Part shown: positions 3,067 through 64,000 of the stretch, in pieces
Numbering within the stretch: the stretch's first letter is position 1
Layout: each line of letters opens with the position of its first letter
Origin: Clostridiales bacterium Firm_14
Lineage (GTDB): Bacteria > Bacillota > Clostridia > Saccharofermentanales > Saccharofermentanaceae
DNA: 64,000 nucleotides
Direction of reading: 5' to 3'
Assembly (NCBI GenBank): GCA_001604135.1
Contig: LVAT01000008.1
Span: 1-64,000 of the forward strand
Notes under the pieces: generated by a model
Databases searched by the model: none
The model's input: only the letters and a program-made list of their open reading frames with translations
What the model was told of the DNA's origin: nothing
Made by a program: the position numbers and the translations under genes

Positions 3067-4413
3067 TTGATGGAGCAAACTGATATTGGCGTAGGAAAAT
3101 CCTATGCTTATGAGATAAAGGGCGGAGTTCCGCTCAAAGGCGATATTGACATCAGCGGCAGTAAGAATGCCGCTCTTGGCGTCATAGCTGCTTCCATTAT
3201 GGTTGACGGTGTCTGTACACTGGAGAACGTCCCGGATATTCTGGACGTTCATGTTATGTTTGATCTTTTGAGATCACTCGGTGCCAGCATTGACGCCATT
3301 GATAATCACACATATAAGATCGATCCTACGACTATAAACACATATAAGGCATCAGGTCCGCTCGTATCGAGGATCCGTGCCTCTTATTATCTTATGGGAG
3401 CGCTTCTCGGCAGATGCGGCAAGGCATCCATAAGGCTTCCCGGCGGATGTAACTTCGGCCAGCGTCCTATTGACCTTCACCTCAAGGCTTTCCAGCTCAT
3501 GGGTGCGAAGGGCGCAAGGCCTTCTGATATCAACAGCGGTATCGTTAATCTTGAGGCAGATCCGTTACATGGTGCGAGGATCTATTTAGACATCGTAAGC
3601 GTTGGCGCGACGATCAACGCGATGCTCGCAGCATGTAAAGCACAGGGCCAGACAGAGATCATCAATGCAGCCAAGGAACCCCACATCGTTGACGTTGCAA
3701 ACTTCTTAAACTCGATGGGTGCGAGGATCAAGGGCGCAGGTACTGACATCATCAAGATCACAGGTGTTCCGGTTCTCCCCGGCAACTTCACATATTCCAT
3801 CATTCCTGACCAGATCGAGGCAGGCACATACATGATCGCAGCAGCCGTTACCGACGGCGACGTCACCATTCACAATCTCATCCCTACGCATATGGAGCCA
3901 TTGTCTGCAAAGATGCGCGAAATGGGATACGTGATCGAAGAAGGTGACGAATCCATAAGAGTATACAGACCCGATTACAGTGAGGAAGTTTATCCGACAA
4001 GCGTCAAGACTTCTCCTTATCCGGGATTCCCGACGGATCTCCAGCCACAGACTGTAGTCCTTCTCTGTTCAGCTGACGGCCAGAGCCGAATGCATGAGAA
4101 TGTTTGGCAGAACAGATTCCAGTATGTTCCGGAGCTTGCGAAAATGGGTGCCAACATTAATGTTTATGAGCGTATCGCCTGGGTCAACGGCAAGACTTCA
4201 TTCAGGGGAGCTACCGTTGAGGCAACGGACCTCCGAGCAGGCGCCGCACTGGTATGCGCTGCTTTGGAAGCTTCCGGCACGACATATATCATGAACGCAC
4301 AGAGGATCGACAGAGGTTATGAGCACATCGTTCAGAAGCTCACTGATCTCGGTGCAACAATCTGCCGTGTCAACCATACTCCCGAGTACGGCGAAGAGGA
4401 TACTGAAGCATGA
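3067..4413 (+). CDS. murA: UDP-N-acetylglucosamine 1-carboxyvinyltransferase
   Basis: GDIDISGSKNAAL, catalytic Cys loop PGGCNFGQRPIDLHL, full length 448 aa. Confidence 0.95.
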   Translation: MMEQTDIGVGKSYAYEIKGGVPLKGDIDISGSKNAALGVIAASIMVDGVCTLENVPDILDVHVMFDLLRSLGASIDAIDNHTYKIDPTTINTYKASGPLVSRIRASYYLMGALLGRCGKASIRLPGGCNFGQRPIDLHLKAFQLMGAKGARPSDINSGIVNLEADPLHGARIYLDIVSVGATINAMLAACKAQGQTEIINAAKEPHIVDVANFLNSMGARIKGAGTDIIKITGVPVLPGNFTYSIIPDQIEAGTYMIAAAVTDGDVTIHNLIPTHMEPLSAKMREMGYVIEEGDESIRVYRPDYSEEVYPTSVKTSPYPGFPTDLQPQTVVLLCSADGQSRMHENVWQNRFQYVPELAKMGANINVYERIAWVNGKTSFRGATVEATDLRAGAALVCAALEASGTTYIMNAQRIDRGYEHIVQKLTDLGATICRVNHTPEYGEEDTEA

Positions 4414-61499: not shown

Positions 61500-62765
61500 T
61501 CATTTAATAAATTCAGTTTTCTCATCAAAGTTGATCGCGGCCTTGCCATCTTTGTCACGGCATATGAGGTAACCTTCCTTGGACACTTGATAGCCGGTCG
61601 TCTTAAGGAGATTGATCAGTTTGGGGCACATGCTGATATCAACGGATGTCAGGTCGTTTTTATAGCAATAGAGACCGTTCAAATTCGTGCACCCGGTAAG
61701 ATCAAGAGCAGAAAGCTTGTTTTCCGCGCAGTAAAGATGATATAAATTGCTGCAGCCTGTGACGTTCAGGCTTGTGAGACCACAATCCCAGCACGATACC
61801 GATCCTATATCGGGACAACAGGTGACATCTAATTCATTCAAAGAATTGCCGCCGCACATGAGTTCCTTCAGCTTGGGGGTGGAACTGAGATCCAGTGACG
61901 TCAGACCGCACTCGACGCAATCGAGTTCTGTCAGTTCAGGACAGGGACTTAAGTCAAGCTCAGTGATTTTGTTATATGAGCACCATAATTCCGTAAGCTT
62001 AGGAAAAGCGGATAGATCCAACGAAGTCAGATTATAGTTTTTATAGCACCTGAATGTCTCGATGTTCCCGCAGCCGCTGTAATTGAGATCAGCCAGAACA
62101 TTTTCTGAGCAATCGAAGTCCTTTAGCTTGGGGCAGTTGCTGACATTTAGTGTGCTGAGGACCTTATTAGCGGTGCAATTAAGTTTGGTAAGCTCCGGGA
62201 AATCGCGAAAATCCAATTCCGTCAAATAATCATTGGTCTCAAAACTGATACGCTCAAGTCCCTTATAACTGTTGAGATCTATGCCTTTCAGCTTCGAGTT
62301 GCAAAGTGTGAATTTCTTAAGCGGAGCGCCTTCCGGCAGTACCAGTTCCTGAAGATCATTGATGTCGATATAGATATTCTCGAGCTTAGTGTTACCGCTG
62401 AGATCTATACGGTTCGCTCCCTGGGTGGCATCGATGGTAAGAGTCCTGAGATTAGTAAAATGTTTGAAATCATACTGCAGGATCTCACCATTTCTGATAC
62501 AAAGAGTCTCAATGTTTGTAAATACTTCTAATCCCGTCAGATCATGCGGCCAATAAAGATCAATAGAAGTCGCGCTCTCGATCTCTGACTGGCTTAATTT
62601 ATTATCGCCATCAAGATCTACACTTTTGGCGGCACTTAATAAGGAATAACCAGGGAATGTCTTTTCATCGATTTTTACATATTTCTCTTTTTCCTTGCAG
62701 CCTGCCAATGCAAACGATGTAAGCAAAGCAGCTGACAACATTATTACTGTTCCAATCCTCTTCAT
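61500..62765 (-). CDS. Leucine-rich-repeat lipoprotein with EF-hand-like loop
   Basis: MKRIGTVIMLSAALLTSFALAGCKEKEK lipobox; DLDGDNKLSQSE; repeats LxCxxNxLxxLDLSxCPxL. Confidence 0.85.
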   Translation of the reverse strand: MKRIGTVIMLSAALLTSFALAGCKEKEKYVKIDEKTFPGYSLLSAAKSVDLDGDNKLSQSEIESATSIDLYWPHDLTGLEVFTNIETLCIRNGEILQYDFKHFTNLRTLTIDATQGANRIDLSGNTKLENIYIDINDLQELVLPEGAPLKKFTLCNSKLKGIDLNSYKGLERISFETNDYLTELDFRDFPELTKLNCTANKVLSTLNVSNCPKLKDFDCSENVLADLNYSGCGNIETFRCYKNYNLTSLDLSAFPKLTELWCSYNKITELDLSPCPELTELDCVECGLTSLDLSSTPKLKELMCGGNSLNELDVTCCPDIGSVSCWDCGLTSLNVTGCSNLYHLYCAENKLSALDLTGCTNLNGLYCYKNDLTSVDISMCPKLINLLKTTGYQVSKEGYLICRDKDGKAAINFDEKTEFIK

Positions 62766-62769
62766 ATCC

Positions 62770-63531
62770 TCACCTCTCAATATACTTATAAAGCCTTGCA
62801 GGTTTTCCCTTTGATGTAATCGTCTTATTGAGCTCGACGACTTTGCCGGTCGCGACATATTCACGAAGGAACGTTTTGCGGAAGTTCGGAAGGTCCAGAG
62901 TGCGGTTCTTGATCGTCTCGTGGATCCTCTTTAATTCCGAGATGGTGAACTCGTTCCTGTCTTTTAAGAGGTTAAAGGCATCATCTTCGTAATCTATCCT
63001 ATTCCTCAAACGGGTGATGGCCATCTTAATGATCTCGGCGTGATCGAACGCGAGATCGCTCTCGAAAATCACCTTATTCTCATTTGTGAAGATGATGCCG
63101 TTAACGTCATATTTAATAGAGAAAAGTTTTGCTTCCTTGGCGTCATCACCGGCCCTGATGTTGAGTTTATGCTTCGGAACAAGTGCAGTGTAGGCAACTG
63201 AAAGTACTGTCGTTCTCGGATCTCTTCCAAGGTCTCCGAAAGTATAGAGCTGCTTGAGATAGACATTGTCGATGTTAGTTTCAGTCTTAAGTTCTCTTGC
63301 TGCAGCCTCGTCGATAGACTCTTTGCCCGCCTCAAGGAATCCGCCCGGGATTGCCCAGTGGTCCTTGTAAGGGAACCCTCCGCGCTTGATCAGAAGGATG
63401 TTAAGTTCGTCGGAGTCGTCTAATGTGAAGATAACGATATCCGCAGTAACAGACGGGCGTTTGAACTTGGTAACGTCGTATTGCTCAAGAAATTCCTTCT
63501 CTTCTTTGGATATGCGGTTGCTCTTTTTCAT
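62770..63531 (-). CDS. NUDIX-domain / winged-helix protein (NrtR-like regulator)
   Basis: GGFPYKDHWAIPGGFLEAGKESIDEAAARELKTETN plus C-terminal wHTH-like region; start MKKSNRISK after GGAGG. Confidence 0.82.
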   Translation of the reverse strand: MKKSNRISKEEKEFLEQYDVTKFKRPSVTADIVIFTLDDSDELNILLIKRGGFPYKDHWAIPGGFLEAGKESIDEAAARELKTETNIDNVYLKQLYTFGDLGRDPRTTVLSVAYTALVPKHKLNIRAGDDAKEAKLFSIKYDVNGIIFTNENKVIFESDLAFDHAEIIKMAITRLRNRIDYEDDAFNLLKDRNEFTISELKRIHETIKNRTLDLPNFRKTFLREYVATGKVVELNKTITSKGKPARLYKYIER

Positions 63532-63544
63532 GTTCTCCTCCGTG

Positions 63545-63585
63545 ATGGTAACTCGTACCATTTATATTATGGTACACAATACCGT
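63545..63585. promoter_or_regulatory. Two tandem 17-bp inverted-repeat operator candidates
   Basis: ATGGTA-N5-TACCAT-N7-ATGGTA-N5-TACCGT upstream of the NrtR-like gene. Confidence 0.7.
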
Positions 63586-63699
63586 AATCATCAAGAGGGA
63601 GATTGTTAACAAACTGCAACATCTATCTACATTAATCGGTAAATATAGTATCCTGATGCAAATGGAACGGGTTAAGATCAAGAAAAGAGGTAAGGGGCC

Positions 63700-64000
63700 A
63701 TGAGTAAGAAGATAGCGTGTATTGCGGTGGTTTTGGCTTTGTTGGTATCTGTTTTCGGATGCTCGAAAAAAACGATGGAGCTGGATCCGCAACTGGAAGC
63801 CAACCTCAAAGGCATAGTAAAAATGGGCGTCTGCAACGAAGTCTATACAAAATACGGACTTGAGCCCGGCGTATCTGTCGACAAGATCGACGCCCGCGAT
63901 GCTTCGGTTAAAGATTATTACAAGCTTTTGTTTACAGCCACAGGTTCTTATACGGTCGTCGCCGATAAGGGTGAGTTATACACCGGCACTTTTACGATCG
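63700..64000 (+). CDS. Lipoprotein, truncated at window end
   Basis: MSKKIACIAVVLALLVSVFGCSKKTMELDPQLEANL...; RBS AGGGG; frame open to 64000. Confidence 0.75.
   Translation, partial: MSKKIACIAVVLALLVSVFGCSKKTMELDPQLEANLKGIVKMGVCNEVYTKYGLEPGVSVDKIDARDASVKDYYKLLFTATGSYTVVADKGELYTGTFTI

Follow-up and report, generated by a model that had tools for sequence, protein, structure and literature searches.

A conserved tandem palindromic operator on the promoter of a clostridial NrtR-family regulator

Among the closest described systems, the NrtR of Streptococcus (S. suis and S. sobrinus; nadR-pnuC-nrtR cluster) joins a Nudix domain with an impaired Nudix box to a winged helix, targets pnuC, nadR and pncB, and has its binding relieved by ADP-ribose (PMC12735969, PMC6800001). 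NrtR1, the clostridial regulator considered here, and its paralog NrtR2 resemble it in their Nudix and winged-helix make-up, their impaired Nudix box, their predicted repressor function and the presence of pnuC and nadR among the predicted targets. The streptococcal operator is different, however (ATA-N-TTTA-N3-TAAAA-N2-ATA) (PMC6800001), whereas our regulators have ATGGTA-N5-TACCAT in tandem on the nrtR promoter itself, and two paralogs share one genome. The NrtR of Mycobacterium smegmatis (MsNrtR) is likewise an auto-repressor with a palindromic site on its own promoter (PMC6800001), but that site is a single 23-bp palindrome, GTTTTCGA-N7-TCGAAAAC, between nrtR and nadABC. SoNrtR, from Shewanella oneidensis, shares its fold, its winged helix and most of its ADP-ribose contacts with NrtR1, although identity is about 27% and two pocket positions differ; the comparison with SoNrtR concerns the proteins.

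For operator geometry, the match lies in Bacteroides AraR (BtAraR), an NrtR-family protein of the same fold as NrtR1, for which tandem 21-bp sites with centres 24 bp apart have already been reported (PMC4666351). There, a dimer covers 25 bp, and the two sites, separated by 3 bp, give two shifted bands that were interpreted as one and two bound dimers (PMC4666351). BtAraR differs in that it senses arabinose, controls arabinose genes, recognizes a half-site containing GTGT and has other pocket residues. We regard the paired site described here as real and conserved, a double operator for NrtR autoregulation of a kind already known.

The regulator, its operator and its promoter

We analysed a 64,000-nucleotide stretch (the window) of the genome of Clostridiales bacterium Firm_14, a bacterium of gut or rumen type; in this stretch nrtR1 occupies positions 62770 to 63531 of the minus strand and encodes 253 amino acids. 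NrtR1 belongs to the NrtR family, as originally predicted: both its N-terminal Nudix domain (PF00293, 61 bits against a cut-off of 21.1) and its C-terminal NrtR winged-helix domain (NrtR_WHD; PF21906, 41.7 bits against 27) exceed the Pfam cut-offs. A structure search with its AF2 model (pLDDT 89.8) returns AraR, SoNrtR with DNA (3gz6) and NadQ, the best solved relatives being 2fml, SoNrtR and BtAraR. Against NCBIfam NF050029, the equivalog of ADPR-responsive repressors, NrtR1 reaches 139 bits where the cut-off is 400, and it is therefore a relative within the family rather than that equivalog. Assignment to the arabinose branch was rejected, since PF19368 (AraR_C) gives 15.2 bits against a cut-off of 23.8 and AraR-type pocket substitutions are absent. 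The Nudix motif is indeed degenerate, reading R79-E-L-K-T-E-T (RELKTET), with Thr where the EE pair should open with Glu, and carrying an extra residue in GX5E; despite this altered box, E71, E80 and E84 are retained and are invariant in 17 orthologs, so that the protein may still be catalytically active.

Upstream of nrtR1 stand two 17-bp palindromes, at 63545-63561 and 63569-63585, which lie 24 bp apart from centre to centre as from start to start and are joined by the linker TTATATT in a 17-7-17 layout. The sequence reads as first reported and the position 5′ of the regulator's ATG holds, but the gap to that ATG (63531) is 13 bp and not 14. Neither operator is assigned to a strand; the proximal one, ATGGTA-N5-TACCAT, is ATGGTAACTCGTACCAT, and the distal one is ATGGTACACAATACCGT, which on the minus strand reads ACGGTA-N5-TACCAT. 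Arm pairing is 6/6 in the proximal and 5/6 in the distal palindrome, and the arms are identical at 11 of 12 positions. This arrangement is the only one of its kind in the window and exceeds chance: when the window was dinucleotide-shuffled 100 times, an equally good tandem palindrome at spacings of 18-45 never arose. A weight matrix built from the sites of the paralog and of other genomes, leaving out the nrtR1 clade, scores the nrtR1 site at 43 bits; restricted to the arms, the score is 32.6 bits, and shuffled sequence reached at most 16.8.

Both palindromes overlie the promoter that reads towards nrtR1 on the minus strand, a sigma-70-type TTGATG-17-CATAAT. Its -35 hexamer, TTGATG (63589-63594), is TTGAC in nearly all relatives, and its -10 hexamer, CATAAT (63566-63571), is invariant in 11 sequences. 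The distal palindrome occupies the 17-bp spacer between the two and runs into the -10 with one arm, its final CAT forming the opening bases of that hexamer; the proximal palindrome starts 4 bp past the -10 and, from this spacing, should cover the transcription start and the 5′ leader. A TTGACA-17-CATAAT promoter likewise overlaps the operators. Within the 13-bp gap, also on the minus strand, a Shine-Dalgarno sequence, GGAGGAG (63535-63541), serves the ATG at 63531. The start at 63561 that would lengthen the open reading frame lies within the operator and lacks conservation.

Given that the proximal palindrome can fold in the predicted 5′ end of the transcript, the repeats might instead work as RNA structure, either a 5′ hairpin or an attenuator. 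We consider this highly improbable: the distal palindrome lies 5′ of the -10 and would stay untranscribed, in the window the leader folds no more stably than shuffled sequence (z 0.39), the region contains no Rfam family match and no terminator, and the half-sites are common to both copies and drift jointly across species, as protein sites do.

The operator was also proposed to control the divergent lipoprotein gene on the plus strand, which starts at 63700, runs to the end of the window at 64000 and continues to about 64524. In favour of this proposal, a possible divergent -35 (63606, a weak match) lies 21 bp from the operator, the gene start is about 115 bp away, and the two genes stay divergently paired in G000 (the genome studied here), G020 and G033. 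Operator and gene are nevertheless separable in relatives. L019 and L030 have the operator next to other neighbours, and in G005 a deletion of about 347 bp took the operator together with the first ~91 codons of nrtR1, yet the lipoprotein gene and about 100 bp upstream of it remain 92% identical to those of G020. Promoter-like matches in the region are also no more frequent than in shuffles. Control of this gene is thus quite unlikely and we do not count it as a target, though steric effects of the operator on it are possible. The G005 locus itself (L029, about 1500-1657) contains an nrtR1 fragment of codons ~92-149 with one TGA beside an intact divergent lipoprotein gene.

Conservation, covariation and the paralog

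Conservation upstream of orthologs, whose absence the original prediction had named as one refutation, was looked for and found. The tandem layout is kept in close orthologs, and loci L030-L032 (83-90% identity; public genomes) retain the site, L032 also carrying the same nadR-pnuC operon. Orthologs of 54-63% identity from Lachnospiraceae, other Clostridia and Selenomonas (L034, L037, L038 and L039) hold the 24-bp spacing too, and their regulators head operons in which pncA and pncB are often joined by nadE, and in L037 by nadD. With the spacing left free between 18 and 45 bp, 13 of 18 orthologs had their best palindrome pair at precisely 24 bp; one palindrome of the pair is partly degraded in L019, L021, L030 and L031, and a clear pair was not found in L035, L036 and L040. 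This conservation and the placement of the operator on the nrtR promoter support the predicted autoregulatory site.

A family-wide 24-bp rule was rejected, as a significant 24-bp pair occurs only in L084 among about 100 more distant NrtR loci, the remainder having spacings of 25, 27, 28 or 35 bp, or no pair. L084 is a gammaproteobacterial locus with AGTGTA-type tandem palindromes (about 3190-3235) 5′ of a distant NrtR (45% identity). Individual loci show further arrangements: upstream of 3968 in L038 (Selenomonas ruminantium strain WCT3), three NrtR-type palindromes follow in consecutive 24-bp steps, and the upstream region of L152 (G197), with NFRR and ATGGTC half-sites, has tandem sites 35 bp apart, equal to 24 plus about one helical turn.

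Across orthologs the half-site drifts from ATGGTA through ATAGTA to ATAGTC, tracking Lys or Arg in the recognition helix, so that position 6 is A with NFRK and C with NFRR (L038, L039, L040, L152 and several others). Among palindromes lying near 100 regulators that are perfect in the 6-5-6 form and carry T at position 5, hand counting gave 14 K/A, 7 R/C, 1 R/A and 2 K/T combinations, the A/C part of this table having a p of about 5e-5 before correction for relatedness. Such covariation of helix residue and base is evidence that the NrtR regulator reads this DNA, and it constitutes a candidate specificity rule. In BtAraR, K184, the equivalent of the helix lysine in the register that we assigned, contacts the position-5 base (PMC4666351).

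The suggested genome scan for ATGGTA-N5-TACCAT, run over 3.12 Mb in 45 contigs, placed tandem sites at two promoters, that of nrtR1 and that of an nrtR2-NMNAT-pnuC operon. With at most one mismatch the motif occurs at 13 places, against 3 for a reversed control, and the only non-coding ones are the nrtR1 pair and the nrtR2 site. At the latter (C45:68604) a second palindrome, GTGGTTAAGATAACCAT, lies 24 bp away in the same 17-7-17 layout and with the same promoter overlay, and a whole-genome search identified it as the only other tandem site. The NrtR2 protein is 78% identical to NrtR1, and its gene heads an operon that also encodes a NadR-type, NMN-adenylyltransferase-like protein as well as PnuC. 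PnuC is a nicotinamide riboside transporter, and the presence of the same operator on this operon supports the link to NAD genes that had been raised. Other NAD genes of this genome (nicotinate phosphoribosyltransferase-like, nadE-like and nadD-like) have no site on them, and the tandem pattern was not found in viral contigs. A single-palindrome regulon beyond the two promoters was rejected, the other one-mismatch or RTGGT-N7-ACCAY places being coding or at the 3′ end of a gene.

A 52-bp sequence model searched against whole genomes gave a consistent picture. It returned just two strong tandem sites in G000 (nrtR1 and nrtR2). G005, G016, G017, G020, G025, G033 and G061 yielded a single strong site apiece, in all cases at an nrtR promoter, and all tested relatives that carry NrtR had the site (E 1e-12 to 1e-15); in five relatives without an NrtR match the best score was E 0.16 and no strong site appeared. 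As the model contains most of these sequences, the negatives and the site count are its informative part. One further single site in G020 was rejected as a regulon member, since it falls in an open reading frame. In a tree, NrtR1 and NrtR2 separate into two clades with moderate support (94/95 and 88/94), and within the genus pnuC is found only where an nrtR2-type operon exists. Because NrtR1 and NrtR2 share the recognition helix LDLPNFRKTFLR and have near-identical operators, each should repress both promoters, including that of the nrtR2-NMN adenylyltransferase-pnuC salvage operon.

Proposed mechanism and inducer

The paired palindromes are, with high probability, an NrtR-family autorepression site composed of two adjacent dimer sites. 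In the ligand-free state, a pair of NrtR dimers would occupy neighbouring stretches, the first dimer the -35/-10 spacer together with the -10 and the second the start site, and would exclude RNA polymerase from the nrtR promoter. By analogy to BtAraR, their edges would meet at the 24-bp step, and together they would span the DNA from -35 to about +20. A step of 24 bp corresponds to ~2.3 helical turns, which would put the dimers on different faces; from the fixed spacing, cooperativity between them is plausible.

The likely inducer is ADP-ribose, which arises from NAD breakdown, since NrtR1 keeps most of the SoNrtR contacts. In the list of six contacts given for SoNrtR (PMC4666351), four are conserved in NrtR1 (Y18, F23, R50 and R106) and two are changed (N43 to G52 and K76 to E84). 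On joining the Nudix domain, ADP-ribose would turn the winged helices and release the DNA, much as the ligand of BtAraR rotates its winged helices off DNA (PMC4666351). The two altered contacts leave a lesser chance that the ligand is another NAD-pathway molecule or a sugar, all the more as family relatives respond to NAD (NdnR) or arabinose (AraR) (PMC4666351). Against this alternative, NrtR1 lacks substitutions of the arabinose type (Gly at R106, Phe at G52 and Leu at E84) and keeps the R106 contact; the operon partners, in the paralog as in distant orthologs, are NAD genes.

The nrtR1 operon and its significance

Only 4 nt past the nrtR1 stop, on the same minus strand, lies an LRR lipoprotein gene (61500-62765), which is probably the second gene of the nrtR1 operon; the 4-nt junction recurs in G020 and L030. 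The lipoprotein has an EF-hand-like stretch, DLDGDNKLSQSE, and stands behind nrtR1 in three genomes (window 61500-62765; L018; L030 4767-5768). This operon is without an NAD gene, and nrtR1 no longer adjoins NAD genes. Together with the pseudogene fragment that is left of nrtR1 in G005, this absence could indicate that NrtR1 is a duplicate in decay and its operator a remnant, regulation having passed to NrtR2. We regard such decay as unlikely, since elsewhere NrtR1 is intact and 90-99% conserved with its operator kept (full length in G020, G025 and L030; 98% for the portion that G033 has), and since G020 and G033 both carry nrtR1 while nrtR2 and pnuC were not detected in either. In these two genomes, either NrtR1 regulates only itself and the LRR lipoprotein, or it has single sites unseen here.

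Tentatively, and at rather low probability, NrtR1 may be a repurposed duplicate that lost its NAD operon, kept its NAD/ADP-ribose sensor and two-dimer operator, and now drives a surface LRR lipoprotein. If true, NAD status would set a cell-surface protein in genomes such as G020 that lack the nadR-pnuC operon. The nrtR1-LRR lipoprotein arrangement is the one part of this work that could be new.

In the literature searched, whose coverage is partial, we found no described NrtR operator in Clostridia; earlier reports are possible for these sites, as they are for the covariation. With the present analysis, clostridial NrtR has a motif, a two-promoter regulon and a predicted two-dimer architecture, with added value from the constant spacing, the two paralogs and the covariation of residue and base. 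The fixed 24-bp spacing recurs in Bacteroides AraR and at one gammaproteobacterial locus, which suggests that NrtR-family dimers repeatedly bind next to one another.
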